From Rhizophagus irregularis (taxonomy: Eukaryota > Glomeromycota > Glomeromycetes > Glomerales > Glomeraceae): a stretch of 64,000 bases of DNA. A program made the position numbers and the translations under genes. This document shows positions 17,477-50,308 of this stretch, in pieces. Positions within the stretch are counted from its first letter, which is position 1, and each line of letters starts with the position of its first letter. A model generated the notes under the pieces. It saw only the letters and a program-made list of their open reading frames with translations, did not search any database and was not told the origin of the DNA. Where the stretch lies: the NCBI RefSeq assembly GCF_026210795.1, contig NC_089435.1, positions 248,001-312,000 of the forward strand, in the 5' to 3' direction.

Positions 17477-17615
17477 ATGATGTTGATGATGATGATGATG
17501 TTGTTGTTGTTGATGATGATGATGATGATGATGATGTTGTTGATGATGATGATGATGTTGTTGTTGATGATGATGATGATGTTGTTGTTGATGTTGATGA
17601 TGATGTTGTTGTTGA
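17477..17615 (-). repeat. CAT/CAA trinucleotide tract (poly-His/poly-Gln)
   Basis: A run of GAT/GTT triplets on the plus strand gives alternating His and Gln runs on the minus strand, inside the zinc-finger pseudogene. It is open in more than one frame. Confidence 0.9.
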
Positions 17616-20677: not shown

Positions 20678-23600
20678 ATGGATAATAAATTCATAAGCCG
20701 AGACACACTTCGAAAGCGTAAAGCTAGAGAGAATGAAACATCTAGTCAACGTGAAACACGCCTTGCAAAGCAACGTGAAATTACGCGGCAAAAAAGAGCA
20801 AGGGAAAATGCAAATGCTGAAGAGCGAGAGGCGCGTGATGCACGTGACAAAGAACGAAAACGCGTAAAGTTAGCAACAGAAACGGACGAACAACGTGAAA
20901 AATGTCTTAGTTACTACCGTGAACGAAGAAAATACCTGAAAAATATTCAAAATACAACGGCCCAAGACTTGAATTCGCAACAAAAAAATCCGCAGCAAAA
21001 GTATCAAGATAGTGGCGCGGACGGCGCAGAAGATGACGGCGCAGAAGATGGCGCAGACACACATACCGATGCTGGTGTACTTGGTGAATTCGAGCGAGAT
21101 TTTCTAAAGAAATTTCGTAACAAAGTTAATAAATTTAAACATTCGCTCTGCACGACGTGCAATGAAAATTTTCCATCAATTGTAATTATAAGGGGGAATG
21201 CCGATGTTGCCATAAAGAAAAGCAGCCAAAAAAATTTTCGAAAGATAACAATATGGACCCAGGCGAAGTACCTGATGAACTTCGTGATCTCACAGAAATT
21301 AAGGAAATGTTGGTTGCGCGAGTATTTCCCGTGATGTCGGTTTATAGACTTCGTGGAGGTCAGCATGGATATCGAGGAAACGTAATCAACTTTCCTCAAG
21401 ATGTCCAAGAATTTGCTTCAAAGCTTCCTAGGCATCCATCGTTATTAGATGTGCTTGTCATATGTCGTCAATCTGCGAGCAATGCGGAAGCGTTTAGGGA
21501 TTTCAAAGTTTGTCGTGATAAGGTCACTCAAGCGTTAATCTGGTTAAAACAAAATAATCGTTACTACGCTGACGTAATCATCGATCATGAAATTCTCCAG
21601 TCTCTGCCAATTGATGGCACAATTGATGACCAACTTCAAGATATTAATGAAGATATTGATTACGACGAAAGTGAGGATGACGTTATTACACGTACCTTCG
21701 TTCCACTTCCACCCTCAGCCAATCGTAAAGATACTGCTATTAGAAACACACTCGATCGAATACAAAATGAAAATCATCACATAATGTGGCCACAAATAAA
21801 TGGAAATCCTGTTAACGAATTCCAGACGTCAGGGTATATAGCATGCGCATTCCTAACCTTATACCCGACTGGAAGTGCAGACCTTCGCGCAGAACGTATT
21901 AGAGATATAAAGCCTGCCGAGTATTTCAGGTACCTTCTTCAATACAAGGACGGAAGATTTGCGCGTTATGCTCGTTGGCGGTATTTCACATTGAATTCCC
22001 AAATGCGTTGGCGGGCACTACAAGAAGGAAAGGTGTACGTTAAGCAAAATCTTACCGATGCGCAAATTACCGTTACAGATATTCAGGAAAGAATTACCCA
22101 AGGCGATAACTATATGGCCAATAGAATCATGCGATTTGGAGAAGGTTTACGTGGATCTCATCAATTTTGGTATGCTCGATGCAATGAATTAAATGATATG
22201 ATTAAGCAGATAGGACCGGATGGCTTAATCTTTTTTACGTTTAGTGCCGCCGATTTGCATTGGCCTGAGCTCCATTAGCTTATGCCATCTAACAGTAATC
22301 GTGAAACTTCAGCCAAACGCTATCACCAAAATATCGTGGATAATCCTCATATCGCGGACTGGTTTTTTCATAAGCGATTTGAAATTTTCTTTAATGACGT
22401 CTTAAAGAAACAATAGGATTTGGAAGATTGGTGGTTTAGGTTCGAATGGCAACATCGCGGCAGTGTTCACCACTGGTAAAAAAATGATTTATCCTACACA
22501 TATCTTACACATATTGGGTACTCAAAATGTAAAAAATCATACACAAATAATACACATATCATACACATATCGGGTACTAATATATATATCATACATATAT
22601 CAGGTACCTGATAGGTATACTATATATATAAATACCCGATATGTGTATGATATGTGTATTATTTGTGTATGATTTTCTACATTTTGAGTACCTGATATAT
22701 GTAAGATATATGTAGGATATGTGTAGGATAGACCATTTTTTTACCAGTGGCACGTGCATGGAATCGGAAAAAGAAAAAATGCACCTACAATAGAATGGAA
22801 GCATATGAAGGAAGATGAGAACAAAATGAATGAAATTATACAATATCTTGACAGTCTCGTTACCACAATAAATCCAGGACTCGATATGCCTGTTCCTAAA
22901 TGGCATCCGTGCCAAAAGAAAAGCAATGAATTAAATGATGACCAGCAAGACTACATCGACTTGATTAATAAATTGCAACGACATACCTGATGTAGTCCTG
23001 CGTACTGTCTTCGTATCAACCGAGAAGGACAACAAATTTGCCGGTTTAGATATCCTAAAGAAATTGTTGAAAGAACATTCGTGCAAGATGATAACAATGG
23101 ACAACCGGAGCTTGTAACGAGAAGGAACGATCAATACATAAATTCACATAGTCGACTTCAATTACAGGGTTGGAGGGCTAATGTGGATTTAAAGCCAATC
23201 CTTAGTATACATGCTGCGCTGCAATACGTTGCAAAATATGCAAGCAAAGCAGAACCGCGATCGTCAGCCTTTTCGGACGTATTAAATCGAATCCTTAGTG
23301 AAAGTCAGCCAGAAGATACGTTACTTGCTCCGGCCCAAAAGCTTTTATTACATAGTGTTGCGGAACAGGACATCTCTGCCCAAGAAACCTGCCATATTCT
23401 TCTCGGCCTTCCTCTTTACCATTCAAGTCAGCAATTTGTCTTCTTGAATCTTAACAAAGAAGCACCAAGATGGATTTGTGGTACTGGGGAAAGTGAAGAA
23501 TCTTATTCTGTTAATAATGATTCGGGGCGAACGGAGAAATCACCTTTGAAAATATATTGGGATCGACCTACCGAACTTGAAGATTTTACACTATTCCGGC

Positions 23601-33119: not shown

Positions 33120-34135
33120 TCACGTCTTCCTTTAGGTATGTGGGTTGGAGTGTGGGAGGGTGTGGGAGGGTGTGGGAGTGCGGGTTGGGAGTGTGGGAGT
33201 GTGGGAGTGTGAAAGTGTGGGAGTGCGGGTTGGGAGTGTGGAAGTGGGAGTGTGGGAGTGTGAAAGTATGGATTTGTGTGTGGGTTTGTGTATGTGGTGT
33301 TTCATTTTATTTTTTTTCGTCATCTTTTTTTTAGGTTTATTTCTCTCTGTCTAGGTCTTTTCTTTATTAGATCTTCTTTTAGGCCCTTTTTCTTTACATC
33401 TCTCTTTAGGTATGTGGGTTGGGAGTGTGGGTGGTGTGGTGTGGGAGTGTGGGTTGGGAGTGTGGGTTGGGAGTGCGAGTGGGTGTGGGAGTGTGAGAGT
33501 GTGGTGTGGGAGTGTGAGTTTGGAGTGCGGAGTGTGAGAGTGTGGTGTGGGAGTGCGGGTTGGGAGTGTGGGAGTGTGGGTTGGGGGTGCGGGTGGGTGT
33601 GGGGAGTGCGGGTTGGGAGTGTGGAAGTGGGAGTGTAGGAGTGTGAAAGTATGGATTTGTGTGTGGGTTTGTGTATGTGGTGTTTCATTTTTTTTTTTTC
33701 ATCATCTTTTTTTTAGGTTTATCTTCTCTCTGCCTAGGTCTTCACTTTATTAGATCTTCCTTTAGACCCTTTTTCTTTACGTCTCTCTTTAGGTATGTGG
33801 GTTGGGAGTGTGGGTGGTGTGGGAGTGCGTGGGTGCGGGTTGGGAGTGTGGGTGTGGGAGTGTGGGTGGGTGTGAGGAGTGCGGGTTGGAAGTGTGGGAG
33901 TGTGGGTGGGTGTGAGGAGTGCGGTTGGAAGTGGGAGTGTGGGAGTGTGGGTCGGGAGTGGGTGGGTGTGGGTGTGGATTGGGAGTGTAGGTGGTTGGGA
34001 GTGTAGTGTGGGAGTGTGGAGTGTGTGTGGCTTATTTTTTTTCGTATTCCTTTTTTTTAGGTCTATCTTCTCTCCATCTAGGTTTTCTCTTTATTAGGTC
34101 TTTTTTCTTTTAGGCCTTTTTCTTTACATCTTCCT
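33120..34135. repeat. G-rich higher-order tandem repeat
   Basis: Three diverged higher-order units begin at the AGGTATGTGGGTTGG word (about 33135, 33410 and 33792). Each has a 130-250 bp minisatellite of GGGAGTGTGG/GGGTTGGGAGTGCG words, followed in the first two units by a GTGTATGTGGTGTTTCATTT tail, and then a pyrimidine-rich linker (TAGGTCTTT...TTTAGGCCC). Almost all guanines are on the plus strand, with many GGG runs a few bases apart. The open frames across it (WECGSVGV-type peptides) occur in several frames and are not genes. Confidence 0.9.
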
Positions 34136-40989: not shown

Positions 40990-41960
40990 TCGTACCAAAA
41001 CCAAGTAAATTACAATGATCAAGGAGAAAGATGCTAATAAAAAAAATGAAATAGCAATGGTGTAATGGAAAGTAATAGAAGATGAAAGGGAGTAAAAAAG
41101 AGTAATGAGAAGTAATAGGAAACAAAAAAAAGAAATAGGACATGGTGAGAGATGAAAAGGAGTGGCGAGAGACGAAAAGAAGTGATGAGAGACGGAGAGG
41201 AGTGATGGGAGATGAAAAGGAGCGATAAAAGAAGTGATGGGAGACGAAAAGGGAGACGAAAAGGAGGGATGGGAGACGAAATAAGTGTTGGGAAGATGAA
41301 GAGGAGTGATGAGATACGAAAAGGTGCGATGGGAGACGAAAAGAAGTGATGGGAAGATGAAAAGAAGTGATGGGTGACGAAGAGGAGTGATGGGAGACGA
41401 GAAGGAGTGATAAGAGACAAAAAGAAATGATGGTAAGTAAACAGGAGAGAAAAAGAGATAATGGAAAATGAAAAGATGCAATAGAAAATAATGGGAGACG
41501 AAAACTCCCCACTCTCGCTGTGCAATGAAAGTGTCCAGACAAACCGGCATCAAATGACGCCATTCGAACCAAAAGAAATAAAACGAAAAACAAAAAAGAC
41601 AAAGGAAAAAGAAAAGGATGATGAAAAATGATGAGAGACAAAAGTAAAGAAATGATCATGATAGGAGGTTGGGTAATAATAGGAAACCAAGTAAAAAATA
41701 AAATCATAAAGTAAAAAAAATGAAGTTAGTAAGAAATGAAATATAAGATAGAAACGAAATAAAAAAGAATAAATAAAAATATTTTTATTAATTGTAGAAC
41801 CGAAAAAACTAAAATACCAAAAGAAAAAAATGAAATAAAATTAGTAAACCCAAATATGAAAGAGAAACAAATAAAAAAGAATAAAAAAAATGAGTAAGTA
41901 ACGAAACGTAAAGTGAAAAACAACTGAACCTTAATTGCAGAACCGGAAGGACTAAAGGAC
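40990..41960. repeat. Homopurine minisatellite
   Basis: The plus strand is almost purely purine over much of this interval. From 41140 to 41450 there are many copies of a GGGAGACGAAAAG-AGTGAT-like unit of about 20 bp, with single-base variants. The minus strand is open in three frames (SHHSSSSPITSF-type peptides), which marks low complexity rather than genes. Confidence 0.85.
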
Positions 41961-44289: not shown

Positions 44290-44568
44290 CACTAGTAAAA
44301 AAATGATTTATCCTACACATATCTTACACATATTGGGTACTCAAAATGTAGAAAATCATACATAAATAATACACATATCATACACATATCGGGTACTAAT
44401 ATATATATCATACATATATCAGGTACCTGATAGGTATACTATATATATAAATACCCGATATGTGTATGATATGTGTATTATTTGTGTATGATTTTCTACA
44501 TTTTGAGTACCTGATATATGTAAGATATGTGTAGGATATGTGTAGGATAGACCATTTTTTTACCAGTG
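44290..44568. mobile_element. 279-bp fold-back MITE, CACTRGTAAAAAAATG termini (copy B)
   Basis: Same length as, and almost identical to, the element at 22471. It is flanked by GTA on both sides (44287-44289 and 44569-44571). It interrupts the NANT exon of the unknown gene relic, for which 13055, 27760 and 59569 serve as empty sites. Confidence 0.9.
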
Positions 44569-46203: not shown

Positions 46204-49200
46204 TTAATTTTCATCTGTTTCAATAATTATATAAATAAATTAATTTTCATATAAATAATTTGCAAGATTAATTCTTTTATATATCATAGTACATACCTAG
46301 TGACCCTAAATCCTTAATTATATAATCATTCAAATCTTCACTTACTAGCATTTCATTTGTTTTTACACTAGCTCGTGAATCTTCACTTTCAAGAATTTCA
46401 TTCAATTTTTTACTAGTAAAACCAAGTAAGCGACTTTTATAACATGCTTGTGGATGTGATTCGGTAATAAGATTGTTATACTGCCCAATTGGCGCATTTA
46501 TAAATTCCACAATATTGCTTTTTAATTCTTCATTAGTTTGATCATCATCAGGATGGAAAATCCATTTTTCAATAGTTTTTAATACTTCTTTAGAAGATGG
46601 TCTTTTTGATGAATCTTCATTCCAACATTCTTTCATTAAATCTACATAACATTGTGGAGTATTTTCGATAATTTCAGGACGTTCACCTTTACAAATACTG
46701 AAACTAAGTTGAATATCATGTGCTCTATTATTAAATGGTGGTACCCCAGATGTAAGTTCCCACATAATCATAGAAAAACTATATATATCACTAGCTGGAG
46801 TATAAGATTTGCCTCTTAAAACTTCAGGAGCCATAAATGGCACTACACCATAAATATCATACTTTTTCAAAAATGATTTTACAGGTTGACATAATCCTAA
46901 ATCACTAATATAAATTTTATCACTATACACATCATCATTATGATTTAAAATATTACCATCATGAAAATCACAATGAATAAGATTTTTTTCATGTATATCA
47001 CTAAGTCCAGAAATAATTTCGTACAACATATATAATTTTTGATTCCAATTATTTTTGACTATTCTTGTTAAATTTTCTCTTAAATTGCCTTTATTTGCAT
47101 ACTCCATTACTACCATATATTTTGAAGTATTTGGATCTTCTGTGAATCCATAAACATCTATAATATCACTTGAAGCTGAAACACTTGTATGATATTCCCA
47201 CTATAAATAATAATAATAATTTATTAATATAAATAAATTTTAATTTAAATTAAAAATAGAAAATAATATACTATCATACTTCTTTTAAAAATTCATTTAA
47301 ATTTTCATTTAAATTCTTGTGGCATTTAAGAATTACTTGATTCTTTAACCAAGTAGCTTTATATATAGTACCAAATCCTCCTTCATTAAGATATTCAACA
47401 CTTTCAAATTTGTTATAAGGAATCCATCTTAATTCTTTTTCAAGAATAAAATTATCTATAACTGTATTTCCACTTTTCCCAAATCTATAAATTTAAATAA
47501 TTAAAATTATATATAGATATTATAGATTGTATTATAATTTACACAAAATAAATTATTACTTACTCTAAAATTTAAATATGAATTTAATGTAATACAATAT
47601 AAGTCTTAATTTTTGGATAAATATATACAATAACCTATAATTTACAACTTACCAACTAAAGTAACAGATGTTTTTCAAATGGAAGAATTCAGTTAACAAA
47701 TAAATATTATATAAATATATAATGATACATATACTTACAAGCTAGATCATAAATAATTTTTTTTTAATAAAGAAATTAGTTAGTTTAAATTATATGTAAA
47801 TGTTATAACAATAAGTAATAATAGAATTAAATAAATAACTTATAACTTACGATCTATTTAAATAAAGAAATTAGGTAGTTTAAATTATATGTAAATATTA
47901 TAACAATAAGTAATAATAGAATTAAATAAATAACTTACTCCCTATATTATTTAATAATTTTTTAAATAAAGAAATTAGTTAGTTTAAATTATATGTAAAT
48001 ATTATAACAATAAGTAATAATAGAATTAAATAAATAACTTACTCCCTATATTATTTAATAATTTTTTAAATAAAGAAATTAGTTAGTTTAAATTATATGT
48101 AAATGTTATAACAATAAGTAATAATAGAATTAAATAAATAACTTACACCCTATATTATTTAATAATTTTTTAAATAAAGAAATTAGTTAGTTTAAATTAT
48201 ATGTAAATATTATAACAATAAGTAATAATAGAATTAAATAAATAACTTACCATCTATAAAATAATTTTTTAAATAAAGAAATTAGTTAGTTTAAATTATA
48301 TGTAAATATTATAACAATAAGTAATAATAGAATTAAATAAATAACTTACGAGCTATATTATTTAATAATTTTTTAAATAAAGAAATTAGTTAGTTTAAAT
48401 TATATGTAAATATTAAAACAATAAGTAATAATAGAATTAAATAAATAACTTACTCCCTATATTATTTAATAATTTTTTAAATAAAGAAATTAGTTGTTTA
48501 AATTATATGTAAATATTATAACAATAAGTAATAATAGAATTAAATAAATAACTTACTCCCTATATTATTTAATAATTTTTTAAATAAAGAAATTAGTTAG
48601 TTTAAATTATATGTAAATGTTATAACAATAAGTAATAATAGAATTAAATAAATAACTTACGAACTATATTATTTAATAATTTTTTAAATAAAGAAATTAG
48701 TTAGTTTAAATTATATGTAAATATTATAACAATAAGTAATAATAGAATTAAATAAATAACTTACGAACTATATTATTTAATAATTTTTTAAATAAAGAAA
48801 TTAGTTAGTTTAAATTATATGTAAATATTATAACAATAAGTAATAATAGAATTAAATAAATAACTTACGAACTATATTATTTAATAATTTTTTAAATAAA
48901 GAAATTAGTTAGTTTAAATTATATGTAAATATTATAACAATAAGTAATAATAGAATTAAATAAATAACTTACTCCCTATATTATTTAATAATTTTTTAAA
49001 TAAAGAAATTAGTTAGTTTAAATTATATGTAAATGTTATAACAATAAGTAATAATAGAATTAAATAAATAACTTACACCCTATATTATTTAATAATTTTT
49101 TAAATAAAGAAATTAGTTAGTTTAAATTATATGTAAATATTATAACAATAAGTAATAATAGAATTAAATAAATAACTTACCATCTATAAAATAATTTTTT

Positions 49201-50308
49201 AAATAAAGAAATTAGTTAGTTTAAATTATATGTAAATATTATAACAATAAGTAATAATAGAATTAAATAAATAACTTACTCCCTATATTATTTAATAATT
49301 TTTTAAATAAAGAAATTAGTTAGTTTAAATTATATGTAAATGTTATAACAATAAGTAATAATAGAATTAAATAAATAACTTACGAGCTATATTATTTAAT
49401 AATTTTTTAAATAAAGAAATTAGTTAGTTTAAATTATATGTAAATATTATAACAATAAGTAATAATAGAATTAAATAAATAACTTACCATCTATAAAATA
49501 ATTTTTTAAATAAAGAAATTAGTTAGTTTAAATTATATGTAAATATTATAACAATAAGTAATAATAGAATTAAATAAATAACTTACTCCCTATATTATTT
49601 AATAATTTTTTAAACAAAGAAATTAGTTAGTTTAAATTATATGTAAATGTTATAACAATAAGTAATAATAGAATTAAATAAATAACTTACTCCCTATATT
49701 ATTTAATAATTTTTTAAATAAAGAAATTAGTTAGTTTAAATTATATGTAAATATTATAACAATAAGTAATAATAGAATTAAATAAATAACTTACGAGCTA
49801 TATTATTTAATAATTTTTTAAATAAAGAAATTAGTTAGTTTAAATTATATGTAAATATTATAACAAATAAGTAATAATAGAATTAAATAAATAACTTACC
49901 ATCTATAAAATAATTTTTTAAATAAAGAAATTAGTTAGTTTAAATTATATGTAAATATTATAATGATAAGTAATAATATAATTAAATAAATATCTTACCA
50001 TCTATAAAATAAATTTTTAAATAATGAAATTAGTTAAATTATATAAATAATATAAATATAGATATCATATAACTTACACCCTGTAGTATTATTAATTATT
50101 AATTTGTTAGATATAAAGATAATATAAAAGTATTTACTGTAAATTATATATATTACTTACAATCTAGTTATTTAAATTAAGAATATAATTAGTTGAATAA
50201 TGTAAAATATTGAATTGTTTATAAATAAAAACTTAATATTTCAGCTTGTTTGATATACCTTTAATATGTTGGTCCATTACTATATCAAAATTCTCAAATT
50301 CTCCCCAA
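46204..50308 (-). CDS. Tyrosine-kinase-like protein kinase with a microexon array in its 5' part
   Basis: Kinase exons: 47280-47484 (preceded by TTTATAG, ends LKE|GTATGA), 46297-47200 (preceded by TTTATAG, starts WEYHTSVSASSDI), and a likely 11-bp last exon 46204-46214 giving DEN and stop. Without that last splice the frame would run to 46277. The use of G|GTATGTAC at 46296 is supported by the same boundary in the kinase at 60849. Motifs: Gly-rich loop LNEGGFGTIY, VILKCH lysine, catalytic loop HCDFHDGN (Arg of HRD replaced by Cys, Asp kept), DLG in place of DFG, and MAPE. The kinase exon has no in-frame ATG before the catalytic domain, so upstream exons are required. The candidate first exon is 50259-50308 (acceptor TTTTTCAG, donor GTATAT), with an in-frame ATG giving MDQHIK. 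Between them lie 26 candidate 3-nt exons and one 1-nt exon. The kinase part is firm; the 5' structure is a prediction without transcripts. Confidence 0.65.
47558..50165 (-). repeat. Tandem array of about 104-bp units, each with acceptor, 3-nt core and donor
   Basis: On the minus strand each unit reads ...ACTAAC-(36 nt)-TATAG, three bases, GTAAGT. Cores (plus-strand start positions): 50161 ATT, 50078 GGT, 49999 ATG, 49900 ATG, 49795 CTC, 49691 GGA, 49587 GGA, 49488 ATG, 49384 CTC, 49280 GGA, 49181 ATG, 49077 GGT, 48973 GGA, 48869 TTC, 48765 TTC, 48661 TTC, 48557 GGA, 48454 GGA, 48350 CTC, 48251 ATG, 48147 GGT, 48043 GGA, 47939 GGA, 47851 ATC, 47739 CTT, 47653 TTG, and a 1-nt core (A) at 47564. 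Period is 104 bp, or 99 bp on the side of ATG units, which have a shorter TATAAAATAATTT stretch. The inner 21 units are nearly identical outside the core. The outer five are diverged but keep donor, core length and acceptor. Confidence 0.9.

Follow-up and report, generated by a model that had tools for sequence, protein, structure and literature searches.

The nank (NACHT-ANK) genes of the fungus Tuber melanosporum are reported to contain multiple codon-sized microexons and are described as alternatively spliced (Iotti et al. 2012, cited in PMC4986451). Here we analyzed a related arrangement in Rhizophagus irregularis, an array of predicted three-base exons that belongs to a protein kinase gene. 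The array is located in a stretch of 64,000 nucleotides, called the window (contig NC_089435.1, positions 248,001 to 312,000 of the forward strand; C7:248001-312000 in a 32-contig genome of 146,748,485 bases). The first-pass annotation of the window knew of no description of a tandem array of such exons, a statement that has to be withdrawn in view of the multiple codon-sized microexons reported for Tuber nank (PMC4986451). As far as the available part of that source goes, nank and the present genes are alike in that both are fungal, both form an expanded family with multiple codon-sized microexons per gene and both suggest a mechanism of diversification. They differ in that nank genes are of the NLR type and not kinase genes, and in that nank is reported as alternatively spliced. 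For the window gene 26 three-base exons are predicted, and a Pfam scan of its putative protein returned kinase-type families only (four families, E up to 0.001), with no NACHT or ankyrin domains. Codon-sized microexons were known before from Tuber nank, and the kinase arrays, which end with an exon of one base, would be a variation on them.

The micro-exon genes (MEGs) of Schistosoma, too, have very short exons in a row, most of them with a length divisible by three, and likewise form expanded families and generate protein variation (PMC10526429). The MEGs differ from the present arrays in that their exons are mostly 15 bp long (6-81 bp according to the text and 3-81 bp according to the abstract), their introns reach ∼5 kb and their proteins are secreted; a near-identical 100-bp unit is not mentioned in the available text of PMC10526429. 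A feature of MEGs, namely that most exons are short and divisible by three, was found in the Rhizophagus arrays as well. Single-nucleotide exons have been described for Arabidopsis APC11 (PMC4674806), plant APC11 and VPS55 (PMC8831610) and Fusarium CYP621A, the latter being called the first in a fungal gene (PMC12940212). According to the accessible parts of these sources, a single base lies between AG and GT and is required for the reading frame, which was also found in the window gene. The published cases are isolated exons of conserved genes, whereas the predicted one-base exon of the present arrays stands at the end of a row of three-base exons, in dozens of paralogues. Drosophila homothorax likewise has a three-base exon, but a single and alternatively spliced one, as described in the available text of PMC7392893. 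A literature search in a licence-limited library did not reveal a description of arrays of this kind for kinases or for Glomeromycotina, and the accessible part of the assembly paper (PMC10234402) does not mention them. SP7 effectors, which also come from R. irregularis, were rejected as a candidate; in the part of PMC11333574 available to us repeats and a conserved intron are mentioned and the word microexon occurs 0 times.

On the minus strand of the window, from 50163 to 47653, 26 cassettes were found that consist of AG, three bases and GTAAG(T/A). The cassettes were spaced 79-112 bp apart, with 99-105 bp in the inner part and more irregular distances in the diverged outer part, which agrees with the ∼26 units of 99-105 bp described in the first-pass annotation. 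The core values given there (five in the inner units; ATT, ATC, CTT and TTG in the outer ones) all matched our count, in which GGA occurred eight times, ATG five times, GGT, CTC and TTC three times each and the four outer cores once each. The array of three-base cores was thereby recovered, and a 27th cassette, TTTTAG-A-GTAAGT at 47564, whose core is a single base ('A'), had been overlooked inside the same interval. TRF detected the array as a repeat of period 104 at 47857-50036. The 26 introns separating the cores comprised 14 distinct sequences, and one of these, 101 bp long, was present in eight identical copies that preceded GGA, CTC, GGT or TTC. Among the units of the main class (n = 16) all 28 flanking columns were invariant, six of them by class definition, and the heterozygosity of the three core columns was 0.54, 0.47 and 0.59.

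We assign a probability of about 0.87 to the reading that the array is coding, with the three-base exons joined to their direct neighbours in order and the one-base exon last. The kinase gene would be transcribed from right to left across the array. Its predicted exon 1 (50259..50277, minus strand; ATGGACCAACATATTAAAG) ends in codon phase 1, is followed by the donor GTATAT at 50258 and has similar counterparts in other array genes. The predicted microexon array (47485..50258, minus strand) comprises 28 introns of 76-109 bp with 26 three-base exons and one one-base exon. It is followed by the kinase exon (47280..47484, minus strand; 205 nt), which extends from FGKSGN to the glycine-rich loop and the ILK lysine and is without an in-frame ATG, and by the last exon (46277..47200, minus strand), which holds the remaining kinase domain and the C-terminal tail and terminates with the stop at 46277-46279. 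Because there is no in-frame ATG in the kinase exon and in-frame stops are located just upstream of it, an upstream exon must splice to it. The kinase exon starts at 47484 as A-TTT-GGG and requires phase 2, while exon 1 ends in phase 1; 26 times three bases leave the phase unchanged and the one-base core (47564..47564, minus strand), needed for the kinase exon frame, bridges phase 1 to phase 2.

When every exon is joined, the predicted product is an open kinase of 408 aa that starts with MDQHIKDWYD. The predicted products are 382 aa with the one-base exon alone, 15 aa without any microexon and 41 aa with all cores except the one-base exon; the model of the first-pass annotation, which missed this exon, is out of frame. 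The 408-aa protein matched PF07714 with an E value of 8.2e-42 over residues 62-310, and the kinase is one we take to be tyrosine kinase-like. Its predicted array-encoded segment is DWYDARRNARNGWILLRRTHGWRNPFE. The predicted microexons, each supported by the cassette scan and the gene model, are on the minus strand: ATT at 50161..50163; GGT at 50078..50080, 49077..49079 and 48147..48149; ATG at 49999..50001, 49900..49902, 49488..49490, 49181..49183 and 48251..48253; CTC at 49795..49797, 49384..49386 and 48350..48352; GGA at 49691..49693, 49587..49589, 49280..49282, 48973..48975, 48557..48559, 48454..48456, 48043..48045 and 47939..47941; TTC at 48869..48871, 48765..48767 and 48661..48663; ATC at 47851..47853; CTT at 47739..47741; and TTG at 47653..47655.

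The array had been described for a single kinase gene. It is real, but like arrays precede many other kinase genes, and the original observation was confirmed and extends further than first described. The repeat-unit pattern had at least 424 matches in the genome. It led to 25 further array stretches, which together with the window represent 25 genes, as L012 and L013 belong to the same gene. A second pattern, the one-base cassette followed by the start of the kinase exon, had 55 genomic sites and its reversed control 0, and chance was therefore excluded. From these 55 sites 20 further loci were taken, whose one-base ends and kinase exon starts are present by construction. Another 13 loci were picked by kinase homology, independent of repeat or pattern, and arrays were present in 5/5 loci of the first and 7/8 of the second set. 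An array, a one-base end and an in-frame kinase exon were found in 57 of the 58 kinase loci read; the frame of the kinase exon was established by script for 54 of the 57 array genes and by eye for the remaining three (L038, L039 and L047). Five loci, three of them with long open frames near kinases, had been considered as array-free relatives; this was rejected, as all five carry arrays. The kinase homology list held 182 exon matches, and by our estimate the family as a whole may number more than a hundred genes. No match to the repeat-unit pattern was found in the viral contigs or in the bacterial and archaeal genome contigs searched. Spliced fossils, sought with the joined-end pattern TTTGAATTTGGRAAAAGTG, and joined copies of the two kinase exons were found at 0 genomic sites each; both searches used exact patterns and are weak.

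The array genes occur in two forms. In the short form, to which the window gene belongs, exon 1 is followed by ATT-GGT. The long form has an extra acidic exon, often with CTT/CTC-TTG/TTA-ATG-ATT-GGT at the start of the array; all 12 extra upstream exons found were open, had a length divisible by three and fitted in phase. The arrays held 8 to 76 cores (46 stretches, some of which cut the array), with beginnings and ends that are alike among genes and a very variable middle. The end CTT-TTG-A was present in 27/46 stretches. In the 25 repeat-unit genes, window included, the end core was always one base (A in 24, T in one; those of L009 and L023, with donor GTAAGC, were added by hand), and among the homology-picked kinases it was A in 5/5 of the first set and A in six and C in one of the second set of eight. 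The design was kept in the paralogues L046-L048, whose kinases are only 65-68% identical and whose introns share 77-79% identity with the consensus unit. One of the longest arrays, ∼10 kb with ∼65 cores (43 + 22), is that of L012 and L013 (G000:C7:2564501-2581000); L013 is the 5' part of this gene and was excluded from gene counts.

To determine core lengths, acceptors and donors were scored with the core length left free between 0 and 15 bases. In the first 26 stretches 842/879 cores had three bases, 24 had one, 6 had six and 7 had other lengths, and the reverse-strand control gave 4 matches. The raw scan of the 20 new stretches, ends included, gave 447/490 cores of three bases, 24 of one, 11 of six and 8 others, with 9 matches in the reverse-strand control; 7 of the 11 six-base cores were from the diverged array L044 and are still multiples of three. 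Across 51 arrays 1475/1551 cores had three bases. A gap-filling step for missed units takes three-base cores only, and unbiased lengths are the scan-only counts. The cores AGAGTA, GGAGTA, AGGGTA, TAGGGA and TAGATG were interpreted as three-base cores, inner one-base matches after AGAG as AGN (with L020 and L046 treated likewise), and one stray match in L012 was removed. The introns varied in length (5-95% range 80-114 bp), and those below 150 bp numbered 469, 385 and 515 by remainder of division by three. A branch-like CTAAC/CTAAT box, ∼33 bases ahead of the AG, was present in the last 70 bases of 1176/1437 introns, and its reverse complement in 31/1437 (L053 excluded). Introns of ∼100 bases with GTAAGT and a CTAAC/CTAAT box fit recognition across the intron.

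With the frame that exon 1 sets, the codon at a junction takes its first base from the end of one core and its second and third from the start of the following core, ∼100 bp away. Stops in these codons were counted and compared with shuffles that permute the cores within arrays. Adjacent cores formed stops at only 3/1404 junctions of 51 arrays, compared with 39.0 (sd 4.8) in shuffles and 54 when the same pairs were reversed; with six-base cores included the values were 3/1423, 39.8 and 56. The first 26 stretches contributed 2/865 stops (shuffles 19.9, reversed 24). For the 20 fresh arrays the outcome had been predicted beforehand, and 1/461 stops were found (shuffles 15.7, sd 3.0, 0/20000 as low; reversed 23). 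A separate version of the test, on inner cores only, gave 3 stops vs 14.5 in shuffles, with 1/20000 as low. Counted array by array, reversed stops exceeded forward stops in 23/51 arrays and the opposite occurred in 0/51. Since distinct stop pairs per array numbered 3 forward vs 46 reversed, the result is not due to repeated pairs. Cores starting with AG, AA or GA followed a core ending in T in only 3/173 cases. Shifting the frame one base earlier resulted in 213/1423 stops, in 46/51 arrays.

The avoidance of stops was confined to direct neighbours. At lag 2 there were 34 stops vs 37.9 in shuffles (z -0.8), and lags 3-8 showed no avoidance (z 0.1 to 1.5). This bears on the proposal of the first-pass annotation that one gene could make many N-terminal variants by choosing among microexons, i.e., that subsets of cores are used by alternative splicing. 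Any subset of the three-base exons would keep the frame if the one-base exon is used, and alternative splicing has a fungal precedent in Tuber as described in the available text of PMC4986451; as stops at lags 2 to 8 are near the shuffled level, we regard this as unlikely, and the claim of many variants found no support. Selection sees neighbour joins and not skip joins, which argues for constitutive, ordered inclusion. The core sequences thus carry no sign of selection from frequent skipping at lags 2-8, with which rare or regulated skipping would remain compatible. The underlying claim of three-nucleotide microexons in a kinase gene is borne out, as far as DNA can tell, by core length, frame and neighbour stop avoidance.

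The same data speak to the notion that the array is a non-coding satellite within an intron, whose unit contains AG-NNN-GTAAGT by chance, for example as decoy or recursive splice sites. Repeat-rich genomes often contain satellites, and the units are indeed near-identical tandem repeats. A satellite would leave unexplained that bases at a distance of ∼100 bp are jointly constrained as a single codon, and in one direction only, that multiples of three are kept by the cores and not by the introns, and that a one-base end and then a kinase exon follow in 57/57 array genes (for 20 of these genes, the pattern used for selection covers the first bases of the kinase exon). Zero-length recursive sites, AG directly followed by GT, were found in only 2/1551 cores. 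Further, the cores vary and the flanks hardly do. Family-wide, 565 units of the main class had a heterozygosity of 0.66, 0.43 and 0.67 in the core columns, the middle base being the least variable of the three, and of 0.06 to 0.33, mostly ∼0.1, in flanking columns (class- and donor-defining columns excluded). A satellite origin is scarcely credible on these grounds.

Several observations weigh against coding by ordered neighbour joining. A cryptic in-frame acceptor, TTATAG at 47456, would yield an open kinase of 372 residues without any microexon, so that the whole array could be skipped as part of one long intron from 50258 to 47456 and be intronic throughout. Such a skip would leave both the neighbour-core stop avoidance and the one-base cassette unexplained, and the FGKSGN stretch upstream of 47456 shows coding-type conservation (Gly as GGG in 21 and GGA in 19 of 43 sequences); we consider it highly improbable. 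The frame in which the cores themselves are codons is also poor in stops (5/1423, in 4 arrays) and the low stop count alone therefore does not fix the frame; exon 1 and the kinase exon mark it, together with the comparison with shuffles. The window cores are uninformative in the stop test, as none starts with AG, AA or GA, and the case of the window gene rests on frame, signals and family. The last set of 7 arrays was too small (0/90 stops vs 2.3 expected, without L053), and in the stretch taken for L053 neither an array nor a kinase exon was found. The prediction of at least 95% three-base cores held narrowly, with 501/520 inner cores after re-reading, and the predicted end CTT-TTG-A held in only 11/20, with variants such as TTT-TTG-A.

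With every detected core used, 39/50 arrays were open; many stretches cut the array at the 5' end, and open means open over the part read. The remaining 11/50, which also count against the coding reading, were not open: L024, L025 and L028 have one stop each, and in eight arrays a core has a length not divisible by three, although the donors of two of these, L042 and L043, overlap and allow a three-base reading. Loci with a stop or frame-breaking core are L024, L025, L028, L003, L010, L014, L016, L029 and L035. These broken copies may reflect decay, skipped exons or assembly errors in G runs; several of the frame breaks are G-run differences, perhaps from long-read assembly. The architecture could accordingly be real in the family while some of the copies, or the window gene itself, are decayed or silent. 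The 11 broken arrays and the changed glycine loop of L038 would fit such decay, but the window gene is fully open over 408 aa and has a strong kinase domain match, and we judge decay distinctly improbable.

Under the favored reading of a coding array, the spliceosome would remove a row of ∼100-base introns and link each three-base core to its direct neighbour, and the one-base last core would correct the phase and thereby allow in-frame reading of the kinase exon. Each three-base exon would be split between two codons (phase 1-1), with each junction giving one residue, and the array would write a short N-terminal segment ahead of the kinase domain. It is hardly feasible for two splice sites with only three bases between them to be occupied simultaneously. 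The introns are therefore probably removed one by one, and each splicing step would set the growing exon beside the following donor. Residues predicted from the junctions were rich in R (11.4%), D (11.0%), F (9.2%), W (8.3%) and Y (7.5%).

The long near-identical introns would allow whole units to be gained, lost or copied without a break of the frame while the cores differ, resulting in a hypervariable segment that evolves codon by codon. Either exchange homogenizes the introns while selection keeps or favors differing cores, or the cores mutate faster. The variation is seen between genes, which have differing arrays, and not inside one gene. In the Podospora het-d/het-e WD-repeat genes, repeat units are likewise exchanged, both inside single genes and between genes of this fungal family, and a few residues diversify, according to the available text of PMC1805685. 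Those repeats are coding domains and not units of an intron and one codon, and the recognition role reported for het-d/het-e (PMC1805685) can only be guessed for the Rhizophagus arrays, whose segment may have a binding or recognition function. Unrelated DNA, in some cases resembling small transposons, is inserted in array introns at L001 2287-2660, L002 4656-5283, L010 4498-4937 and 5612-6244, and L025 874-1370 (array-strand positions); the flanking cores are still recognizable.

Other repeats were observed in the window. A dispersed repeat is present in two copies, at 22548-22730 and 44367-44549, consisting of TAATACACATATCATACACATATCAGGTAC and an array of the 11-bp GATATGTGTAT; a similar element lies inside an array intron of L001. 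At 33142-34030 there are ∼0.9 kb of G-rich, GGGAGTGTG-like tandem repeats, and the surrounding 2-kb bin has a GC content of 0.41 and a strong GC skew. A purine-rich, TGAGAGACGAAAAGGAGTGA-like tandem repeat of ∼20 bp is located at 41146-41437, and ATG is repeated 43 times in tandem, with 90% matching, at 17477-17605.

If the coding reading is true, each mature mRNA would require error-free splicing of tens of consecutive three-base exons and a one-base exon, and constitutive three-base exons, tens in a row, would test ideas on how the spliceosome finds exons. The lag-wise avoidance of stops between distant bases offers a DNA-only test that can separate constitutive from skipped microexons. Exons this short are often overlooked by aligners and gene callers, as stated for plants in the available text of PMC8831610, and in this model mycorrhizal fungus the annotation of a large kinase family may for this reason be wrong in an N-terminal segment. 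The arrays would be a simple way to vary a protein segment freely without frame errors. Somewhat more tentatively, dozens to perhaps more than a hundred kinase genes might carry a hypervariable domain with one residue per exon, in which the introns act as homogenized recombination handles and the three-base exons diversify, giving the fungus a repertoire of kinases with fast-changing recognition segments; we hold this possible, though with some doubt.

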